From: a virus
DNA length: 50,689 nucleotides
Virus record (IMG/VR): IMGVR_UViG_3300020416_000011
Span: 1 to 50,689 of that record
Direction: 5' to 3' (one strand)
The notes under the pieces are model-generated. The model searched no databases and had not been told where the DNA came from. It saw only the letters and a program-made list of their open reading frames with translations. A program made the position numbers and the translations under genes. Positions 3,924-50,689 of the stretch are shown here, piece by piece; position 1 is the first letter of the stretch, and each line of letters opens with the position of its first letter.

Positions 3924-4464
3924 AGTAGGACACACATATTTTTCAGTAATAGAAGATATGCTTACCCCTGACCAATGTCAGGAAATAATCAATTCTGTAG
4001 ATAATTTTATAAACCGAGACATAAAAGAAGGAAACTACAATGGTTGGCAGACAGGACGGCTATTTAGACATGTTGGTAATCCTACTGATAAGTATTTACC
4101 TTTGTTCGAAAGTGTTTTCAATGAGTTTAATGTGGGCAGTTATAACTTCAATCTTATTGACAATAAATATACTCATTTTTGTAATATGTATACTGAAGGA
4201 CAGGAAGTAGGTTGGCACAGAGATGAAGATGAATCAGTAGAAGATTTATTCGAAAGGACACCTGCAAATAGATTATCTTGTAGTGTCTTTTTGAATGAGG
4301 GCTTCAACGGAGGAGATTTCGTACTAGAAGGAATAGACAGTTGGAAACCGAAAACAGGTATGTGCATAATGTTCCCATCAGCACATCTACACCGAGCGGG
4401 TAGGGTAACGGGTGCACTAAAATATAATTACACAGTTTGGAGAAAAGGAGAAAGAGGAGCTTGA
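3910..4464 (+). CDS. Fe(II)/2-oxoglutarate-dependent oxygenase
   Basis: A 184-residue protein with the double-stranded beta-helix metal triad: H103-R-D105 (WHRDEDE) and a distal His in SAHLHRAG, followed by an Arg/Lys position near KYNYTVW for 2-oxoglutarate. A PxxC-like entry (LTPDQCQEI) resembles prolyl-4-hydroxylase or AlkB-like phage oxygenases. The GTG at 3910 gives a natural N-terminus; an upstream ATG at 3823 would add a 29-residue tail out of character with the family. The next gene starts within its stop codon. The substrate could be protein, nucleotide or glycan. The neighbouring carbamoyltransferase suggests small-molecule or DNA-base tailoring, by inference only. Confidence 0.8.
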   Translation: MKIHRVGHTYFSVIEDMLTPDQCQEIINSVDNFINRDIKEGNYNGWQTGRLFRHVGNPTDKYLPLFESVFNEFNVGSYNFNLIDNKYTHFCNMYTEGQEVGWHRDEDESVEDLFERTPANRLSCSVFLNEGFNGGDFVLEGIDSWKPKTGMCIMFPSAHLHRAGRVTGALKYNYTVWRKGERGA

Positions 4465-5816
4465 TTGTAAAAGGGATTTCAGAGGGATTTCATGATGCCT
4501 CAGTAGCATTACTTGAAGATGACCAAGTCGTCTGGGCTAAACACGCCGAGAGATTGACAAGAAAAAAGAATGACCCAATCAACCCAGAGTATCTCAGAAA
4601 TGTGGACGCAGATATATCGGTTTTTTACGAAGATGTACCGCTAAAGAACGAAAGACGTGTAGCACATTCACAAGTCCCTGTTTCAACAAAAATTTTTGAT
4701 GAATGTGATTACCATACAAAACATCACGAAAGCCACGCAACAGGAGCGTACTATACTTCACCATTTACCGAGGACGCGGTAGTTCTCGTGATTGATGCGA
4801 TTGGAGAATGGAATACTTGCAGTATTTGGCAAGTAAAAGATAAAAATTTCAAAAAAGTTTATGAAAAAAATTATCCATATAGTATTGGCCTGTTCTACTC
4901 AGCAATCACCAAGCGTATTGGTTTGAAGCCAAATGAAGATGAATATATAACTATGGGAATGGCAGCCTACGGAGAGAAATGCGTAGATATGCTGTGGTGC
5001 TTCAATGACTGGGCAAACTGGCACAAAGGATTCTCATTACAAGATTTTAAAGGATATCACCCCTACGATATCGCTGCAAGTGCCCAGGCTCACGCAGAGT
5101 TAGAAATCGAAAAGTTAGTAGGACTAGCTGCTAACTGGGGAACAAATTTATGCTATGCAGGTGGAGTCGCACTCAACTGTGTAGCCAATAGTAAAATACT
5201 ACACCACTACTTCGATAATGTTTGGATTTATCCAAACCCAGGCGATGCAGGGAGTAGTTTAGGTGCGGCATTATCATACACTAAAAAACATATAAAGTAT
5301 AGTCCGTATATCGGCACAGATATACAACAACATATCAACCCAAAAATAGTAGTAACACAGTTACTAAAAAACAAAGTAGTAGGAGTAGCAAATGGCAAAG
5401 CGGAATTTGGACCCAGAGCATTGGGCAATCGTAGTCTTCTTGGTGATGTTAGGCATAATATTAAGCGCGGAGTTAATCGCATTAAAAAACGGCAACAGTT
5501 TCGACCATTCGCTCCAGCTATACTATCAGAGTTTGCAGACGAATACTTTGAAGGAATAACTAATCCGTATATGCAGTATGTTGCAAAAGCAAAGCATGAC
5601 TACAGTTCTGTAGTTCATGTAGACGGAACAAGTAGAGTACAAACTGTAGAGCCTGATTGTCCTAGTGTATTGAGAAGGATTTTAGAAGAATATTATGAAC
5701 GCACAGGGATTCCCATGTTATTGAATACAAGTTTGAATATAAAAGGACAACCAATAGTAGATACTTGGAAGGACGCTGTGGAGTTCGAGAAGAAGTATGG
5801 AGTACCAGTATTTTGA
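4461..5816 (+). CDS. NodU/CmcH-type O-carbamoyltransferase
   Basis: A 451-residue enzyme of the carbamoyltransferase family, which transfers the carbamoyl group of carbamoyl phosphate, via carbamoyl-AMP, to a hydroxyl. N-terminal Kae1-like domain: GISEGFHDAS, HHESHATGAYYTS (metal His pair), DAIGEWNT, EYITMGMAAYG, GGVALNC, and NPGDAGSSLGAAL. C-terminal YrdC-like domain: EFGPRALGNRS and QFRPFAPAIL. The TTG at 4461 gives the normal family N-terminus, has AAGGAG 10 nt upstream and overlaps the preceding stop as TTGA. It is shorter than typical 550-600-residue members and ends soon after NTSLNIKGQPIV, so about 20 terminal residues are missing or replaced. The acceptor could be a modified nucleoside or a sugar. 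Confidence 0.9.
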   Translation: MIVKGISEGFHDASVALLEDDQVVWAKHAERLTRKKNDPINPEYLRNVDADISVFYEDVPLKNERRVAHSQVPVSTKIFDECDYHTKHHESHATGAYYTSPFTEDAVVLVIDAIGEWNTCSIWQVKDKNFKKVYEKNYPYSIGLFYSAITKRIGLKPNEDEYITMGMAAYGEKCVDMLWCFNDWANWHKGFSLQDFKGYHPYDIAASAQAHAELEIEKLVGLAANWGTNLCYAGGVALNCVANSKILHHYFDNVWIYPNPGDAGSSLGAALSYTKKHIKYSPYIGTDIQQHINPKIVVTQLLKNKVVGVANGKAEFGPRALGNRSLLGDVRHNIKRGVNRIKKRQQFRPFAPAILSEFADEYFEGITNPYMQYVAKAKHDYSSVVHVDGTSRVQTVEPDCPSVLRRILEEYYERTGIPMLLNTSLNIKGQPIVDTWKDAVEFEKKYGVPVF

Positions 5817-20338: not shown

Positions 20339-20879
20339 GGATTTCATTAGTGAACAAGATGCCCAATTTTTTAGAGAATATGCTAGTTTAGCAATTAGCA
20401 ATCCGTCAAGACAGATACAGTTAGCAAGTGGCAAAGGAGATGGAACAGAGGCAAGAGAGATGAATAAAGTAGATAGACTATATTACTCAATAAATAGCCC
20501 TTTTCATTTATTCGACAAAGTAAGAAAGATTGCAGAAAAGAACTGGAAAGTACCTATTACATTTAGACAAGATTCATATGCACATATTATGCACTATTTG
20601 AAGGATAGTGAAGGATTGAGGTGGCATAGTGATGGAAACATGGGGTGGGTATCTGCAAGTATCAATATTACACCAGACTATATGTATGAGGGTGGTGAAT
20701 TTGAGATAGAAGCTAAAGGAGATTTTGACTGTAAGTATAGAGAAATCATAATGTATGATAGATTAGTAAGACATAGAGTAAAACCACTACTGGGCGGAGA
20801 AAAGATGAGCCTAGTTCTATGGCTACCTAAGGTCGACCAAGAAGGGTTAAATAAAGGTTTTCAGTGGAAGTATGAATAA
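20319..20879 (+). CDS. Fe(II)/2-oxoglutarate-dependent oxygenase
   Basis: A 186-residue prolyl-hydroxylase-like oxygenase. The metal ligands are H-S-D in RWHSDGN, with a distal His in DRLVRHRVKPL, followed by G-G-E-K-M-S for the 2-oxoglutarate carboxylate. The EGGEFEIE segment between them is typical of phage P4H-like enzymes. It overlaps the next gene as TAATG. With the enzymes at 3910 and 18051 the window has two clear and one possible oxygenases. Substrate unknown. Confidence 0.82.
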   Translation: MTVMKIRDFISEQDAQFFREYASLAISNPSRQIQLASGKGDGTEAREMNKVDRLYYSINSPFHLFDKVRKIAEKNWKVPITFRQDSYAHIMHYLKDSEGLRWHSDGNMGWVSASINITPDYMYEGGEFEIEAKGDFDCKYREIIMYDRLVRHRVKPLLGGEKMSLVLWLPKVDQEGLNKGFQWKYE

Positions 20880-22387
20880 TGTGCGGATTTGTAGGAACAA
20901 CACACAAAGAAGTAGCAAAACTAATGCTACAAAAACAAGAACACCGCGGCCCAGACGCGTCAAGTTATTGGTCGGACAATACTTTTAGTCTAGGGCATTG
21001 TTTATTAGATATTACAGGGTCTAACCAAACTCAGCCTGTAAAAACACCAAACGGAAACATTCTTCTCTTTAATGGCGAAATGTACGACAGTAGAGAAAAG
21101 AACGATACTATGTGGCTAGCAAAAATGTTAGACAAATATGGTGTTTCCGTACTAGAATGGAGTGATTGGCATGGCTCCGTAGCGTATTACATGCCACAGC
21201 ATAAAAAACTAGCTCTTATCAGAGACCAGTTTGGTACAAAACCACTATGGTGGAAGTGGGACGGAGAACACTTTGAGTTTAGTACCAGCTGTAAGTCATT
21301 TTTACATAAAGAGTTACAAACCCAAGAAATGAAGTTTGGGTCTATGGGAGACGAATGTATTTGGAAAAATATCCACAAAGTAGAACCAGGTGGATATTTA
21401 GAGTTTGATTTAGCAAAGAACTACAAACTCACTAGACGAAACTTGTGGAACTGGTTTAGCTTTCACAAGAAAAAGTTTGACGCAGAAGAATTTAGAGAAA
21501 GAACAAAAGAATCCATATTGAAAGTAGCAAACTACGGTAATTCTACCAATAAACATGCTATATTTCTAAGTGGCGGGTTTGATAGCCAACTAGTCGCTAG
21601 TATATGTAGAGAAAGTACAAAAGACATAACACTTTATACTTGCGGATATACAAACGAAAGAGGAAATACTCACGAACATTGGGGTTTCCAAGAAGAAAGT
21701 AAAATGGCTCTAAAATCTGGTGAATTATGGGGTAGAGAAGTCAAGAAAGTAGATATAAATAGAGATGAAAGAATAGCTCTAGGCAAGACTTGGCTAGCAG
21801 GTACTCACTATCTGTGGTCTGACCATAATAGACAAGGCCCTCGTTACAAACTAGCAAAAGCAGCTGCTGAAGACGGCTGTAAAGTAGTATTAACAGGGGA
21901 TAGTGGAGACGAGTTATACTCAGGATATTTACATCACGACAAGAGATGGAATCCAGAATATAACAAAAAAATGATAAGACAAGCAAAGTCATGGAGATGG
22001 TTTCCTAGAAGTGTATTTGAGTGTTCAGACGATAAGGCTAACACTTTATTTATAGATTTACTGACGACATCAGAGCAGAATATTCTTGCAACTGACCAGA
22101 CAGTAGGATTATTTGGCATGGAGGCTAGAATACCATTACTTACGCAACGGTATGTACACTACAATATGAGTTTACCTACCGACACAAGATTTAAACATAT
22201 TGAAGGTCTTGATTTAGGTACTACAAAGTATCTAATGAGAGTAATTATGAAAGATTATCTACCAAAACACGTAATCGAAAGAAAACAAAAAACAGGGTGG
22301 AGCAGTCCATGGGACAATAATCACCCACAGCAACAGTTTCGTTGGAGACAAGAAGATTTAGAATTATTAAGGAGACTAGGAGCGTGA
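20879..22387 (+). CDS. asparagine synthetase B-like glutamine amidotransferase
   Basis: A 502-residue two-domain enzyme. The N-terminal class II glutaminase domain has Cys2 exposed after Met removal, H22-R-G-P-D26 and FNGEMYD. The C-terminal PP-loop synthetase domain has S231-G-G-F-D-S236 and LTGDSGDELYSGY. Both active sites look intact, so ammonia from glutamine can be passed to an adenylated carboxylate. Such phage AsnB-like proteins may amidate aspartate or modify another carboxylate. It is coupled to the oxygenase before it and to a tiny membrane peptide after it (GTGA). Confidence 0.9.
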   Translation: MCGFVGTTHKEVAKLMLQKQEHRGPDASSYWSDNTFSLGHCLLDITGSNQTQPVKTPNGNILLFNGEMYDSREKNDTMWLAKMLDKYGVSVLEWSDWHGSVAYYMPQHKKLALIRDQFGTKPLWWKWDGEHFEFSTSCKSFLHKELQTQEMKFGSMGDECIWKNIHKVEPGGYLEFDLAKNYKLTRRNLWNWFSFHKKKFDAEEFRERTKESILKVANYGNSTNKHAIFLSGGFDSQLVASICRESTKDITLYTCGYTNERGNTHEHWGFQEESKMALKSGELWGREVKKVDINRDERIALGKTWLAGTHYLWSDHNRQGPRYKLAKAAAEDGCKVVLTGDSGDELYSGYLHHDKRWNPEYNKKMIRQAKSWRWFPRSVFECSDDKANTLFIDLLTTSEQNILATDQTVGLFGMEARIPLLTQRYVHYNMSLPTDTRFKHIEGLDLGTTKYLMRVIMKDYLPKHVIERKQKTGWSSPWDNNHPQQQFRWRQEDLELLRRLGA

Positions 22388-32707: not shown

Positions 32708-33360
32708 ATATATACATAGGGTATGAAGAAGCACACCCCGAAATGTATGAAGTATGTAAAGCTTCGATAGAACGCTTTAGTAAACTTCATGTAATAAAAC
32801 CTTTGATTAAATCAAAGTTAATAGAGCAGGGTGTGTATTCACGACCTTTTCAAGGAGAAGCAACTGACTTTTCCTTTACTAGATTTTTAGTACCCTATCT
32901 AAACAATTTTCAAGGGTGGGCATTATTTGTAGATGGAGATTTTCTCTTTCGTGCCGACCCACAAGATATGACAGAGTGCGTTGATGAAGAAGAACATGAT
33001 GTCTACGTAGTCAAGCACCCTGAACTTATTACTAAACAAGGAATAAAGATGGACGGTAGAATTAACCGTCCATACCCATGTAAGTACTGGTCATCACTAA
33101 TGTATATAAACTGTGATGAACAAAGTCTAAGCCCAGAGACTGTTAATACTGCAAACGCAGGTTACTTACATGAATTCAACTGGGCGGGAAGCATAGGAAG
33201 TCTCCCCGCAACCTGGAACAATATGATAGGTTACTATGATATCTACCAGCCATGTGCTGTTCACTTTACAGATGGAGGGCCTTGGTTAAAAGGTTTCGAA
33301 GACCAACCCTACGCTGACGAGTGGAGAGCAGTACGGAATGAAGCACAACGACCAATATAG
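32704..33360 (+). CDS. glycosyltransferase, GT8-like
   Basis: A 218-residue GT-A-fold protein. D77-G-D79 in WALFVDGDF is the metal-binding DxD motif, and the N-terminus (IYIGYEEAHPEMYEVCKASI) matches small phage GT8-like enzymes. A late His in CAVHFTDGGPW fits the third metal ligand. Starts at GTG in a GTGA overlap. The acceptor could be phage DNA, virion protein or host glycan. It heads a cluster of glycan-type genes. Confidence 0.8.
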   Translation: MNIYIGYEEAHPEMYEVCKASIERFSKLHVIKPLIKSKLIEQGVYSRPFQGEATDFSFTRFLVPYLNNFQGWALFVDGDFLFRADPQDMTECVDEEEHDVYVVKHPELITKQGIKMDGRINRPYPCKYWSSLMYINCDEQSLSPETVNTANAGYLHEFNWAGSIGSLPATWNNMIGYYDIYQPCAVHFTDGGPWLKGFEDQPYADEWRAVRNEAQRPI

Positions 33361-34252
33361 CTTCCTCGAACACAGGAGGAGTCAAGAGGCTGCGCATCAC
33401 AAGAGACTGTCTAATGAAGAGTTTAACCCACTCAATTCGATTCTCACAGTCGAAGTTAATACTACCGAACTTTGTAATCGAAATTGTGTCTTTTGCCCGA
33501 GACATGACCCACAAGTTTTCCCTAACAGGAATTTGCATATGACTCCAAACGGTGCGAGTCATATAGCACGAGAACTTGGACGTAATCATTATCGTGGCAA
33601 AATCTCTCTTAGCGGCTTTGGTGAAAATTTACTCAATCCAAAGTTTCCTGAAATAGTAAAAAGTTTTAGAACACATCTCGATTCCAACATTCTCGAGTGT
33701 AATACCAATGGGGATAGATTGACTTCAAAGTATGCAAAATCTTTGTTTGAAAATGGTCTCTCCCTTCTGTATATTAACTTATATGATGGAGCGCATCAGA
33801 TGGAACACTTCGATGAAGTTATGCGTGATATACCGTCAGACAGATACAAGTACAGAATGCACTGGAGTCAGAAGGATCATGGACTTATATTAAACAATAG
33901 AAGCGGGACTATCGACTGGCTAGGAATAGATGAAGCCGATATTCAATCTTTGCAAGGGAAACCGTGTCATTATCCTTTCTACAAAATGTTTGTAGATTGG
34001 AATGGAGATGTTTTGTTCTGTAGTAACGATTGGGGTAGAGAGCATGTAATAGGAAACCTCATGCAAGATACTCTGATGAATGTTTGGTTTAGTAAACCAA
34101 TGAAGAAGATAAGAAGAAGATTAGCAAGAGGGGATAGAAGTCAATCTCCGTGTAACGGGTGTTCAGTAGATGGGACACTATTTGGAAAGGAGTCGTTCGA
34201 TATAGTACAGAAGTATGAAAACAAAGGAAGAGAAATTATTGCAAGCAGTTAA
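33338..34252 (+). CDS. radical SAM/SPASM domain enzyme
   Basis: A 304-residue radical SAM protein. The [4Fe-4S] motif is C46-x3-C50-x2-C53 (ELCNRNCVFC), followed by LSGFGENLLNP (SAM-binding GGE-like) and ECNTNGDRL. The C-terminal SPASM region has Cys in GKPCHYPF, LFCSNDW and PCNGCSVDG for auxiliary clusters. Such enzymes modify peptides, sugars or amino-glycosides by radical chemistry. It sits between a glycosyltransferase and an SDR, so sugar modification is the more likely role. It overlaps the preceding gene by 23 nt. Confidence 0.88.
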   Translation: MKHNDQYSFLEHRRSQEAAHHKRLSNEEFNPLNSILTVEVNTTELCNRNCVFCPRHDPQVFPNRNLHMTPNGASHIARELGRNHYRGKISLSGFGENLLNPKFPEIVKSFRTHLDSNILECNTNGDRLTSKYAKSLFENGLSLLYINLYDGAHQMEHFDEVMRDIPSDRYKYRMHWSQKDHGLILNNRSGTIDWLGIDEADIQSLQGKPCHYPFYKMFVDWNGDVLFCSNDWGREHVIGNLMQDTLMNVWFSKPMKKIRRRLARGDRSQSPCNGCSVDGTLFGKESFDIVQKYENKGREIIASS

Positions 34253-45764: not shown

Positions 45765-46145
45765 TTAAAAGCTCCCTGCGTCTATAGTGTCTGAGTCCGC
45801 TGAACTGTTTCCTATCATTACAGGAACAAAAGCAAAGTTTCCTGCAGACGTTTCTCTATAGATCTTTAACTGATTATCGTCAGTATCGTAAAAGAAATCT
45901 CCTTCTGCTAGATTAGTTGTTCCTGCAGTTGGAGCCGTTGTTTGAACGAAGAACTGATCTGCTAGTTGCAGAAGTGCCTGTTCTACCGTTGACGCATCTG
46001 AGATAGTTCTCGCTGCGTTTTGAAAAGTAATACCTTGTGCGTCTGTAGCCGCACCAGCAATAGCTGTTGAGATAGTAAGCTCAGTTACATTATTAGTTAC
46101 GCCTACTGACGTAGTTTCTGGGGTAATTGTTAATTTAACTGCCAT
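45765..46145 (-). CDS. structural protein, probable baseplate or fibre connector
   Basis: A 126-residue protein with NVTELTISTAIAGAATDAQG and FFYDTDDNQLKIYRETSAGNFAFVPV, a common fibre-associated motif that ends many short phage appendage proteins. It overlaps the following gene start by 1 nt. A GAGCTT/AAGCTC hairpin covers its stop codon (45761-45774). Confidence 0.75.
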   Translation of the reverse strand: MAVKLTITPETTSVGVTNNVTELTISTAIAGAATDAQGITFQNAARTISDASTVEQALLQLADQFFVQTTAPTAGTTNLAEGDFFYDTDDNQLKIYRETSAGNFAFVPVMIGNSSADSDTIDAGSF

Positions 46146-46483
46146 TATCTAGTAACCTCTGGAGTGACTCTTGCCACGCCCTGTAGTAATCTATTTACTG
46201 TACCATTTGAAGTATTTACTAATTCTAAGTCGTAATAATATTTACCTGACGCAATGGCTGCTGTTACCGAATTGGTCAACGCCATTTTTAGTTTTCCACC
46301 TGACGCATTAGTAATTGTGCAAGTAAAGTCTGCTGTTTTTGTAGAAGACGTTGGTGATGGACGTAACTGTGCCCGCGCTGTATGTGTTGCGAGAGGGGTA
46401 GCTACACCACCTTCTGAAATCGCTACTTCAATAGCAAAATCTGATCCTTGGTCAATAACTATATCGTAAGTTCCTGCTGCCAT
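46145..46483 (-). CDS. small Ig-like virion protein
   Basis: A 112-residue protein beginning YDIVIDQGSDFAIEVAI and continuing HTARAQLRPSPTSSTKTADF, the pattern of a frequent phage structural beta-sandwich protein. It is the first gene behind promoter P6 and starts the leftward structural operon. TAGGAG lies about 12 nt before the ATG. Confidence 0.78.
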   Translation of the reverse strand: MAAGTYDIVIDQGSDFAIEVAISEGGVATPLATHTARAQLRPSPTSSTKTADFTCTITNASGGKLKMALTNSVTAAIASGKYYYDLELVNTSNGTVNRLLQGVARVTPEVTR

Positions 46484-46637: not shown

Positions 46638-47276
46638 TTATGAATATGACCAAGTTACATCAGCCCAATCTGAATCTCCAGCTTTTAGATCTCTATATTG
46701 TGCTATGGTTGCCTCATTGTGTTCAAGGTTTTGTGCTTCTAAATGAAACTCGCCAGGAGTTGTAGTTGTAGTTCCTGTTAAATCAAATCCTAAACCGTCC
46801 CACTTTGTTCGAGTTGCAGATACTGCGTTATTGTGACCTGCATTACCAGGCGCTTGAAACCAGGCATTTATATGTGTCATATTCCATCTCTCCATCATTC
46901 CGAGCGTCATTATATTGTGGTCTGAAAAATATCCTTTGCCTCTTTCGTTAGGGTCAATCATACCGAATCTTACATTCATTTTACCTGCCTCTGCTCCGAA
47001 TACCCAAGTACTAATTCCTATAGGTGTACCTGATTTTTCAGAAACATAAGTTGCTAGTAGAAGATTATCATTATCGTATGTATGTATATTTGTTTCATTA
47101 AAGTTATCATTATTTAGTAACATTCTACTAAATCTATTAAGTCTTGCAATATAAGTAGTAGTTCCTTGTGGAAAATCTTTCCAACATCTCATAAAGAAGT
47201 CTTGATCTGCTGAAGTTTCTTGAAGGGGTCTAAATTTCCACCCATTACTTGCTGTGCATATTGTTGTTGCTGCCAT
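46638..47276 (-). CDS. GNAT-family acetyltransferase-like protein
   Basis: A 212-residue protein with the GNAT acetyl-CoA loop ERGKGYFSDHNIM (R-G-x-G) after a central strand (MNVRFGMIDP), preceded by LATYVSEKSGTPIGIS. The C-terminal part after residue 165 has TTTTTPGEFHLEA. It lies 7 nt behind the large fibre gene with AGGAG before the ATG. It may acetylate a virion or host protein, or be a structural protein using a GNAT fold. Confidence 0.72.
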   Translation of the reverse strand: MAATTICTASNGWKFRPLQETSADQDFFMRCWKDFPQGTTTYIARLNRFSRMLLNNDNFNETNIHTYDNDNLLLATYVSEKSGTPIGISTWVFGAEAGKMNVRFGMIDPNERGKGYFSDHNIMTLGMMERWNMTHINAWFQAPGNAGHNNAVSATRTKWDGLGFDLTGTTTTTPGEFHLEAQNLEHNEATIAQYRDLKAGDSDWADVTWSYS

Positions 47277-47283
47277 GTTTCTC

Positions 47284-50200
47284 CTATTGTTTACTATTAT
47301 GTACTAACATACCGTCTACATAATAGGTGTGTTCATTATCAACTGTAATATTCCATACAGTTCTTTTTATATTTACTAGTTCTATTCTCTCTACTTCTCC
47401 CGCCGTAGTCATATCTCCCACTTCTATTTCTTGTGGTTGGAGTTCTATTCTGTGTCCAAACTCTACATGTTCTTTGTAGTATTCTTCTGGGTCAATACAG
47501 CACCAGCCTTTATCTTCTATCCATACTGGGTGTCCTGCTGTAAGTTGTATATCGTTTAGTTTGTACCAGTAATCAACTTCAAATGATTCTTTTTTAGTAA
47601 CTGTACCATTTTTTATCTTTTGTCCTACTTCTAAACTTTCAATAGCTTGTTGTCCTTCTTCTAAGTCTACGAGAGTACCAGGAAGGAAACAGCCTCCACC
47701 GCCGCCTCCGCCGCCTCCGCCGCCGCCTCCAGAAGAACTTGTATCAATAATATAACAACTCATATCAATTGTTAAACCACTTTGAGTATGTGTAACAGTA
47801 ATAGTTTTAGTTGTTGCATTACTTCCAAAAGTTGAAGAAGACCACGCATCAGCTCCTGTGCCTGTATTTGTAAGAGCAAAACCACTCACATTGTCTCCAC
47901 TTCTAGACCATGTGTAAGTACAACTTTGAGAAGATACACTATCTAGTGGGTGGTCAACTGTGATTGTACCTGTTGTATTATTTGCACTATAGTTAGACCC
48001 GTCTGTAGTACTGAATGAACTTGCTTGTGCACCAGTAGATACAAAGATACTACTAAACTCAAAGTCTGCTTGTTTTGTAATTGTAGCACCGCCCGCTAAA
48101 TGAGCGTCAATAATTGAGATATTTGATAAGTCTCCATAATTTCCACTAAATGATGAAGTACCTGCTCCAATCGCTGCTCTAGCTGTTGCTGCATTACTTG
48201 ATGTGATAGCTGCGAGTCGAGGGAAGTCGGCTGCATCAAATCGAGCTGTAGCTATCTTACCTGTTAAATCTGCCGCAGAACCACTAAATGACGAAGTACC
48301 TGCTCCAATGCTAGTTCTAAAAGTAGAAGCATTGGTAATAGCATTGGCTACTAGAGTCTGGTTTATACCAGTTAAAAAGTTTGAGTCATTAGTTAACTCT
48401 GAAACAGCACTAGGTATAGTAGGTTTCCCACTTAGAGCACTATAAGCCCCACTAAACGATGAAGTACCAGCTCCTATTGCAGTACGAGCTGCACTAGCAT
48501 TAGCAGCTGTAATAACTCCTAAAGTTGGAAAATCACTTACACTAAATCTATCTTCAGATATAAAACCTGAAAGGTCTGCTGCAGAACCACTAAATGATGA
48601 AGTACCAGCTCCAATATTATTCCTAAAAGTAGTAGCGTTACCTCCAATATTAGCTCCAGTAATATTCATAGGAGTAAATCCTAATCCTGAAGTTATACTA
48701 GTACTTAAATTAGTAAAGTCAAAACTATACTCTAAATCTATTAAGTCTGTTATAGAAGATTTGTCAAAGTATATAAATGGAGTTGACCATACCCAACTCC
48801 CTGAAGCATCAGTACCATTTGACTGCCAAACTGTGACAGTACTTGAATGAGATAGTGAAGACTTAGTCCATACATTATTACCAGTAGAAGTAGAAGTTAT
48901 TTCTCCAACTGGTTTTGATGGTGCAGTTGAAAATCTAGCCGCTCCTGTTTTACCATAGTATACGACTGCGGCATTTGAACCATCATCTCCTTTATCGCCT
49001 TTCTCATGGATTGCATGAACAAAGGCCGTAGACCAATCTGCTGCAGCAACTGATACTGATGTATCATTGATACTTCCTGTAACTACGCAGGTAACTGCAT
49101 GAACTTTTGCTCCGTCTGCTGGGGTTGATCCAAAGGAAGGAGGTGTTAAGTTCCAAGAACTTGCATTGCCCCCTGTAAGTGTAAGTACGCCTGTTAGGAA
49201 ATTATAAGTTGCTGTTGGGTCAGCAGGTGCGCTACCTGTAGTAACATCTGAGTAAATAATTAACTCTTTTGCCATTGTACCTTCGAGTCTGTATGGTGTT
49301 CCCCAAGTAAATCCTGTAGCACCAGTAGCTTTTGTTCCTTCTACAGCGAAAAGTACACCAGTACCACTTGGTACATTATCACTCCAAGTATATGTAGTAC
49401 TGCTAATTGTAAAGTTTGCGGGAGTAGTTGCTGTACCGTTTGTAGATGCTGTAACATCTGAAGCATCAGTGCCTGCTGGTACTCTTACAAATGCAAAGTT
49501 TACAGTACCACCAGCTGCTCCATCAGCTCCTGTCTTACTTTTTGTAAGTGTTTGAGTTACTGGAAAAGTAAAAGCAGTTCCACTAGTATCTTTACCTGTA
49601 ATTGTATAAGTTAGAATTATTTTGTCAGTACCATCTGACATTCCTGAATGGTCGCCAATAGTTACAAATCTTTGTCCACTACTTCCTGTAGAAGATATTG
49701 TTCCTTCTGTAATATTAGAATCATTATTAACACTTACTGTCCAATGTCCATTAGTAGTTCCTGAGCCATCATAATCTAGTAGCTTCACTCCTTGATACAT
49801 TTTTATAGTACCACCACTACCTGTATAGTTACCTACTACGCCATCTTTACTTGCTGGGAATACGTGTGCTATATTATCAAAGATAGGTTGTACTGCTCCT
49901 TCAAATAGTTCTACTATATGAAGTTGAGTAGTATCTGAAGCACCGCCATCATCTGCGTGTAAAGTATATGTAAGTGTCATGTCGTCTACTATTTGAGACG
50001 AACTTACTGTGGCAGTAGCTTTTCCATTTGTAATTGTATTGTTTGTTGTTGCACTACCTCCGCTTACAGACCATGTTCCATTTTGAGTTGTATTTGTACA
50101 TTGTGCTGTAACTGTAATACTTGATGGGTGGAAGAAAGTGAAATCAGAAGTTCCCCCTCCTTCATCAGGGAAAATCTCTTTTGTCATCATTTGAGAATCA

Positions 50201-50689
50201 GGAGTTACAACTACAAGTTTTGCATCTTCTCCTGCTGATCCTTGTGCTGATTTTGAGAAGGAAAGTATTTTATCTGCAATTAGTAGATCTGCTCTACCTC
50301 TATCAAATAGTCTTACAGTTGCTGTAGCGGTAGTAACGGCGTCCATATCTCCGTCGCCAATAGTTATCTGTCCAGTTGATGAATCAATTACTACATCACT
50401 ATCATTATCAAATCCAGTTCTTGCTTGTAGACTTATACCAAAAGTATTTTGGGTAGTACCACTATTTGCAAAACTATATGCTTGACTTCCTCTTTTTACA
50501 GTAAAGTCACAAGTATAGGCACTTTCATTTGTTACTGTTCCGTCAAGGTTAGAGTCAAATGTAAAGTTTTGATTTGTTCCTTCCACAGCATAACCAGATT
50601 CTCCTTGTACACTACCAAACTTTTGTAGAGTATAAGTATTTGATGCTGTCTTTGTAACCTTACCCATAATAGTATCATTTTGATAGTCT
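47284..50689 (-). CDS. large fibre protein with C-terminal Hint (intein-like) domain, possibly partial
   Basis: At least 1,127 residues. The first Met in view is at 50667, but the frame is open to the window edge and no ribosome-binding site precedes that Met, so the true start may lie outside. Residues 1-650 are beta-rich Ig-like domains with a collagen-like GDKGDDGS. Residues 680-870 hold repeats of GAGTSSFSGSAADLSG and ITAANASAARTAIGAG. A run of 12 Gly (981-992) leads into a 135-residue Hint domain (CFLPGT, TAGHPVW, HTYYVDGMLVHNSKQ). Hint domains self-cleave or splice. Confidence 0.9.
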   Translation of the reverse strand, partial: DYQNDTIMGKVTKTASNTYTLQKFGSVQGESGYAVEGTNQNFTFDSNLDGTVTNESAYTCDFTVKRGSQAYSFANSGTTQNTFGISLQARTGFDNDSDVVIDSSTGQITIGDGDMDAVTTATATVRLFDRGRADLLIADKILSFSKSAQGSAGEDAKLVVVTPDSQMMTKEIFPDEGGGTSDFTFFHPSSITVTAQCTNTTQNGTWSVSGGSATTNNTITNGKATATVSSSQIVDDMTLTYTLHADDGGASDTTQLHIVELFEGAVQPIFDNIAHVFPASKDGVVGNYTGSGGTIKMYQGVKLLDYDGSGTTNGHWTVSVNNDSNITEGTISSTGSSGQRFVTIGDHSGMSDGTDKIILTYTITGKDTSGTAFTFPVTQTLTKSKTGADGAAGGTVNFAFVRVPAGTDASDVTASTNGTATTPANFTISSTTYTWSDNVPSGTGVLFAVEGTKATGATGFTWGTPYRLEGTMAKELIIYSDVTTGSAPADPTATYNFLTGVLTLTGGNASSWNLTPPSFGSTPADGAKVHAVTCVVTGSINDTSVSVAAADWSTAFVHAIHEKGDKGDDGSNAAVVYYGKTGAARFSTAPSKPVGEITSTSTGNNVWTKSSLSHSSTVTVWQSNGTDASGSWVWSTPFIYFDKSSITDLIDLEYSFDFTNLSTSITSGLGFTPMNITGANIGGNATTFRNNIGAGTSSFSGSAADLSGFISEDRFSVSDFPTLGVITAANASAARTAIGAGTSSFSGAYSALSGKPTIPSAVSELTNDSNFLTGINQTLVANAITNASTFRTSIGAGTSSFSGSAADLTGKIATARFDAADFPRLAAITSSNAATARAAIGAGTSSFSGNYGDLSNISIIDAHLAGGATITKQADFEFSSIFVSTGAQASSFSTTDGSNYSANNTTGTITVDHPLDSVSSQSCTYTWSRSGDNVSGFALTNTGTGADAWSSSTFGSNATTKTITVTHTQSGLTIDMSCYIIDTSSSGGGGGGGGGGGGGCFLPGTLVDLEEGQQAIESLEVGQKIKNGTVTKKESFEVDYWYKLNDIQLTAGHPVWIEDKGWCCIDPEEYYKEHVEFGHRIELQPQEIEVGDMTTAGEVERIELVNIKRTVWNITVDNEHTYYVDGMLVHNSKQ
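47287..47691 (-). other. Hint domain region of the large fibre
   Basis: Codons 993-1127 of the fibre. Cys993 starts block A (CFLPGTLVDL), TAGHPVW is block B, VWNITVDNEHTYYV is block F and LVHN is block G, followed by SKQ, only three residues after the Asn. The nucleophilic Cys, block B His, terminal His-Asn and a following Ser (+1) are all present, so N- and C-terminal cleavage are chemically possible. The adjoining poly-Gly is encoded by GC-rich GGN codons at 47692-47727. Confidence 0.82.

Follow-up and report, generated by a model that had tools for sequence, protein, structure and literature searches.

In an uncultured tailed phage, the central tail fibre, a lambda gpJ-type protein, carries a Hint domain at its distal end, directly behind the tip domain; we propose, at a probability of roughly 60%, that this is an A-type bacterial-intein-like (BIL-like) autoprocessing domain that sheds itself from the fibre. 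The DNA analysed, here called the window, is one whole linear IMG/VR virus record (IMGVR_UViG_3300020416_000011) of 50,689 nucleotides, and its relevant features are collected in Table 1. Rfam and tRNA scans across the window gave no matches; the same phage genome carries carbamoyltransferase (4437–5816), asparagine synthase (20879–22387) and radical-SAM/SPASM (33338–34252) genes.

Table 1. Features at the 3′ end of the fibre gene and immediately downstream, in window coordinates
Feature	Position	Strand	Basis
3′ portion of the lambda gpJ-type central tail fibre gene	47284..50689	(-)	ORF open to edge; full-length relatives with gpJ core
Tip domain, last fibre domain before the Gly run, residues 849–979	47731..48123	(-)	Profile A4
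13-Gly linker, residues 980–992	47692..47730	(-)	Sequence
Hint (BIL-like) domain, Cys993 to Asn1124, 132 amino acids	47296..47691	(-)	Sequence, profiles, conservation, AF2/Foldseek
Cys993, block A nucleophile (Cys1)	47689..47691	(-)	Invariant in relatives covering that site
Block B T-A-G-H, residues 1043–1046	47530..47541	(-)	No variation of T and H among 31 diverse phage Hints
Blocks F and G, TVWNITVDNEHTYYVDGMLVHN, His1123-Asn1124 at end	47296..47361	(-)	TIGR01443 above cut-off; conservation
Three-residue tail Ser-Lys-Gln, Lys common to phage Hint C-flanks	47287..47295	(-)	Sequence, Lys counts
TAGGAG, stop codon overlapping the next gene's likely ribosome-binding site	47281..47286	(-)	Sequence; layout same in most relatives
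GNAT-fold gene, partner of Hint-ended gpJ	46638..47276	(-)	AF2 (pLDDT 72.6) and Foldseek to N-acetyltransferases, E = 1.8e-6

Translation of the minus-strand ORF at 47284–50667 gives, in order, the fibre, the Gly run, Cys993, TAGH, H1123-N1124 and S1125-K-Q-stop. This agrees with the first-pass annotation, which had described a Hint domain with a block A Cys, TxxH, His-Asn, Ser at +1 and three trailing residues, except that the glycines it counted as 12 number 13. The reading frame stays open up to the contig edge (50688) and the 5′ end lies beyond it, so that Cys993 and the other residue numbers differ from those of the real protein. Full-length relatives measure 2,449 to about 3,068 amino acids, and their genes come after one for gpI-like tail assembly. 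In two of them (L004 and L007) the N-terminal start is the lambda gpJ core, with matches to phrog_31 central tail fiber J (E = 2.6e-136) and Pfam Phage-tail_3 (2e-22); both the core domains and the position after gpI were found in these two, and the window carries the 3′ part only. Judged by these matches and the gene order, the protein carrying the Hint domain is a lambda gpJ-type central tail fibre. In lambda, gpJ forms a trimeric central fibre whose C terminus sets host specificity (PMC11101478), which places the Hint domain at what should be the receptor-binding end. The window-type protein shares the core, the gene order and the central-fibre identity with lambda gpJ but is about twice as long, has a C-terminal Hint domain and ends in a swappable cassette.

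Profiles and predicted structure both point to a Hint domain. A search with Hint and intein profiles, which had been suggested as a check, returned TIGR01443 (intein_Cterm) above its cut-off (19.3 versus 15.6). Single-sequence Pfam matches to Hint_2 (4.7e-4), Intein_splicing (1e-3) and PT-HINT (1.6e-3) fell below gathering scores, and a gpJ relative with the same domain (L154) passes PT-HINT (37.6 versus 27.7 bits). A Pfam AXH match at 8e-6, below the cut-off, is read as similarity within Hint domains. When a profile of the Hint family was compared with solved structures, a Clostridium BIL domain (2lwy) ranked first (E = 6.7e-5). The AF2 model of the domain (pLDDT 89.7) gave Tetrahymena BIL2 as the best Foldseek match (4e-8), with the Clostridium BIL and the gp41-1 intein also at the top and many inteins among the matches, at probability 1.0. 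The predicted Hint fold, the block A Cys at position 1 and the block B TxxH together place the domain in the Hint superfamily.

Relatives of the domain, 61–97% identical, are encoded on 11 IMG/VR contigs, and Cys1, TAGH and HN are invariant among them wherever the contig covers these sites; conservation at such divergence argues that the Hint layout is not a chance one. An alignment of 31 diverse phage Hints, most of whose members outside gpJ are about 26–33% identical to the window Hint, shows the block B T and H to be invariant, Cys1 nearly invariant and HN kept. Pairwise dN/dS between Hint relatives, by the Nei–Gojobori method, was 0.11–0.30 with dS up to about 1.5, where the estimate is saturated, and by this measure the domain is under purifying selection. 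At +1 the window and most relatives have Ser, four more distant ones (L011, L012, L078 and L154) have Gly, and elsewhere Lys predominates. A search for isolated phages with a close relative found none, the one faecal record being 27.7% identical, and no close prophage copy was found in GTDB genomes.

Within the superfamily, the fold and the non-conserved +1 residue favour filing the domain as an A-type BIL-like domain in an unusual place. A-type BILs (PMC4031507, PMC7765530) have a His-Asn end, here H1123-N1124 and invariant in relatives, and no conserved C-flank nucleophile, a trait that holds for the family, the window copy taken alone having Ser at +1. The Clostridium thermocellum BIL (PDB 2lwy) and other A-type BILs share with the window domain this HN end, the non-conserved +1 residue and a variable carrier, and 2lwy is its best PDB sequence match; the window Hint differs in lying at the extreme C terminus of a phage tail tip with a 3-residue Lys tail. 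Class 1 mini-inteins such as gp41-1 resemble it in fold, Cys1, TxxH, block F His and His-Asn, and the window also has Ser at +1, but the window family lacks a C-extein, a conserved +1 residue, an insertion site in a conserved enzyme and an endonuclease. A canonical (class 1) intein is rejected for the missing C-extein and for a +1 residue that, though Ser in the window, is not conserved; nor do two exteins of one conserved host protein enclose the domain, as three residues follow it and gpJ proteins without a Hint terminate elsewhere. Ordinary two-extein splicing, already held unlikely in the first-pass annotation, is excluded with only three residues of C-extein. The HN end likewise excludes a B-type BIL, which has no His-Asn end, and SKQ alone follows the Hint, so that there is no sterol-recognition region of a Hedgehog Hog domain. 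PT-HINT domains of polymorphic toxins (PF07591) are akin in that the gpJ relative L154 scores above their cut-off; the window Hint has no toxin behind it, which rules out a pretoxin role.

For this domain we infer the following chemical steps and timing, and an importance of shedding for the tip. The fibre would fold first; Cys993 would then attack the Gly992–Cys993 bond in an N–S acyl shift assisted by the TAGH histidine, giving a thioester; Asn1124 would cyclise, cutting Asn1124–Ser1125; and the thioester would be hydrolysed or attacked by an amine of the SKQ tail. The Hint domain would be shed either way, the Gly run becoming the end of the mature fibre, to which SKQ may or may not be joined, and shedding would matter for making or arming the tip. 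Both half-reactions are implied by the retention of Cys1, TxxH and His-Asn. In A-type BILs cleavage products dominate (reviewed in PMC4031507). Cleavage at the N-terminal side could do without His-Asn and a residue behind it, yet both persist, a sign that selection may act on the C-terminal reaction too; against self-removal, C-terminal cleavage would free a mere tripeptide, an odd target for selection. The C-terminal intramolecular chaperones of the T5 tail fibre and the K1F tailspike are likewise C-terminal fibre domains that remove themselves after folding (PMC10579305), as is predicted for the window Hint; their fold is unrelated and their cleavage is Ser-dependent.

The Gly run in front of the domain varies among relatives (13 Gly, GGTSGGGGGG or GSGGGLGG) and many phage Hints have no poly-Gly, so by these comparisons it is inessential to the fibre–Hint layout. 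Nor was support found for poly-Gly being the rule among phage Hints generally: the initial search pattern required GGGG, and a scan without it gave few such runs.

A gpJ-core scan showed that the C-terminal part of gpJ is exchanged as one block. A Hint-ended gpJ (L150) and a Hint-less one (L148) are 93% identical over 1,969 residues and then diverge until the downstream MAAGTYDIV gene; the existence of such Hint-less genes means that the remainder of gpJ manages without the Hint. One version of the block comprises the tip domain, poly-Gly, the Hint domain and the GNAT-fold gene; the other comprises an FKFNGE-ended tip, a RimK-like ATP-grasp gene (PF08443, 1.2e-28) and two GNAT-like genes with weak Acetyltransf_3 matches. 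The tip domain was detected by profile A4 in Hint-ended gpJ genes only (the first alignment row of this profile has one wrong residue, NVS for NIS, with no effect on the result expected), and hhalign gave no support for homology between the last gpJ domains of Hint-ended and FKFNGE-ended genes. Judged by this pattern of exchange, the Hint, the tip domain and the GNAT-like gene form one swappable tip cassette. An LtfC-like gene (phrog_3304, L-shaped tail fibre assembly) at 46145–46483 marks the far border of the swapped cassette. The Hint-less gpJ genes of L148 (15439–17662), L137, L139 and L164 have a conserved G-F-S/T-FKFNGE end followed by the RimK-like ligase and, where the contig continues, by the two GNAT-like genes; C-terminal modification of the fibre is possible there.

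In all 16 contigs counted with a Hint-ended gpJ, window included, this gene is followed by a GNAT-fold gene of the window family, which is found in 0/6 Hint-less gpJ loci with a complete 3′ end, and no Hint-less relative carrying the same downstream gene was found. A specific link between this gene and the Hint is weakened by the two GNAT-like genes of the alternative cassette itself, and these, together with shared ancestry, leave the co-occurrence of limited weight for function.

The most serious alternative to self-removal, which we nonetheless consider unlikely, is that the Hint acts as an acyl transferase, loading the C-terminal glycine of the fibre as a thioester and passing it to a lysine amine to form an isopeptide bond. 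The acceptor may be the protein's own tail or a neighbour's, another virion protein or a host surface molecule, and the GNAT-fold gene might help in this or shield amines. What makes transfer to lysine a serious contender is Tetrahymena thermophila BUBL1 BIL2 (PDB 6y75, 6tmm), which follows a ubiquitin-like domain containing an RGG motif and hands its N-flank to Lys, making Lys isopeptides (PMC8616854). BIL2 is the best fold match and shares the Gly-ended N-flank before Cys1 and the Asn end, but it is only 14–15% identical to the window Hint and belongs to a eukaryotic ubiquitin-like locus with domains on both sides, its acceptor being a whole domain, whereas the window Hint has a virion fibre as its N-flank and three residues after it; a Foldseek rank, moreover, does not transfer function.

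Lysines in the tails were also counted. Among Hint-ended ORFs with ≤16 residues after the Hint, Lys occurs in 36/36 unique tails and in 16/16 clusters (at 60% identity), compared with 4.8 expected from 1,368 other ORF ends of the same loci, a control that overstates significance because the clusters share descent. A looser motif gave 39/40, the exception being ESDT in L268. In 54 non-canonical Hints selected solely on N-terminal domain sequence, regardless of C-flank, Lys stands at +1 in 46 and within +1 to +6 in 51, and Lys or Arg within +1 to +6 in all 54. Both AAA and AAG encode the tail lysines, which are kept across tails as different in sequence and length as K, KK, SKQ, GAKE, VHDK, AWEKF and GGGNKR; this apparent retention of Lys despite changing tails is notable. 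The two usable bacterial PT-HINT C-flanks, too small a sample for comparison, both read HN-C. These counts favour the acyl transferase, but the Hints are homologous and the clusters partly dependent, and the Lys might have a part in folding or reflect an HN-K motif passed on by descent.

The RimK-like ligase of the rival cassette also speaks for transfer, as enzymes of this type extend proteins at the C terminus by further residues (RimK is known to polyglutamylate RpsF; PMC11957791), and it would fit a shared theme of modified fibre C termini. On this broader and rather doubtful idea, tailed phages would covalently modify the C terminus of the central fibre by two unrelated chemistries alternating at one locus: in one, the Hint would activate the terminal glycine as a thioester for transfer to lysine, and in the other the conserved FKFNGE end would be the substrate of a RimK-like ATP-grasp ligase, each with GNAT-fold partners.

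It is quite improbable that the Hint is instead a permanent module of the virion tip, such as a protective cap or a receptor-binding part, with its catalytic residues kept for stability only. Its place at the receptor-binding end and its being swapped along with the tip would suit such a role, but unrelated carriers, at the low identities given above, largely preserve Cys1, His-Asn and the histidines of blocks B and F.

Hints recur on other virion-type proteins. Behind Gly runs they end unrelated ones (baseplate-hub-like phrog_2048, PYIANARQP-repeat and glycine-rich proteins), and many further structural-type proteins carry them without poly-Gly, some in tandem. The baseplate-hub-like tail protein of L032 (1435–2529, minus strand) and its relatives have a C-terminal poly-Gly Hint, which in L032 matches Pfam AXH at 1.3e-13, hinting at an AXH–Hint link. 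Glycine-rich proteins of about 480 amino acids in L031, L045 and similar contigs have a Hint-like end with NILNA replacing His-Asn. In L036, L039, L084, L097 and L180 the Hint lies near the gpJ N terminus in Gly-rich flanks (GGGG-Hint-HNGGGGK), gpJ itself being the C-extein. One gpJ (L154) carries two tandem Hints (HN-GGGGGGG-YK-C...), the second without HN; this second, Vint-like type (CLTPxML..., no His-Asn) is the only one at the gpJ end of L130. Hint arrays occur in L073, L176, L178, L213, L217 and L269, some fused as HN-K-CFVAGT and several ending HN-K-stop or HN-KL-stop. Tandem arrays, N-terminal gpJ copies and copies in Gly-rich stretches of unrelated proteins could suggest a mobile Hint module stranded at the gene end and useless to the phage, which is very unlikely given purifying selection over long divergence, a short tail conserved behind the domain, a constant partner gene and a 132-residue domain that leaves no room for a homing endonuclease.

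Hint domains at the ends of phage fibres were not found described in a search of the open-licence literature. Two observations are new here: the near-constant presence of Lys in the short tails behind the His-Asn of C-terminal phage Hints, and a near-isogenic gpJ pair in which a tip–polyG–Hint with a GNAT-like gene is set against an FKFNGE tip with a RimK-type ligase and two GNAT-like genes. The natural role of BILs is poorly known. Here selection maintains one where a well-understood piece of the virion should bind its receptor, and many other virion proteins of phages show a similar layout; because nearly identical genes with and without the Hint occur in nature, BIL-like domains gain a testable natural setting. 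If the proposed cleavage is true, it would be a new maturation route for the siphophage tail tip; if ligation is true, phages would make covalent fibre conjugates.
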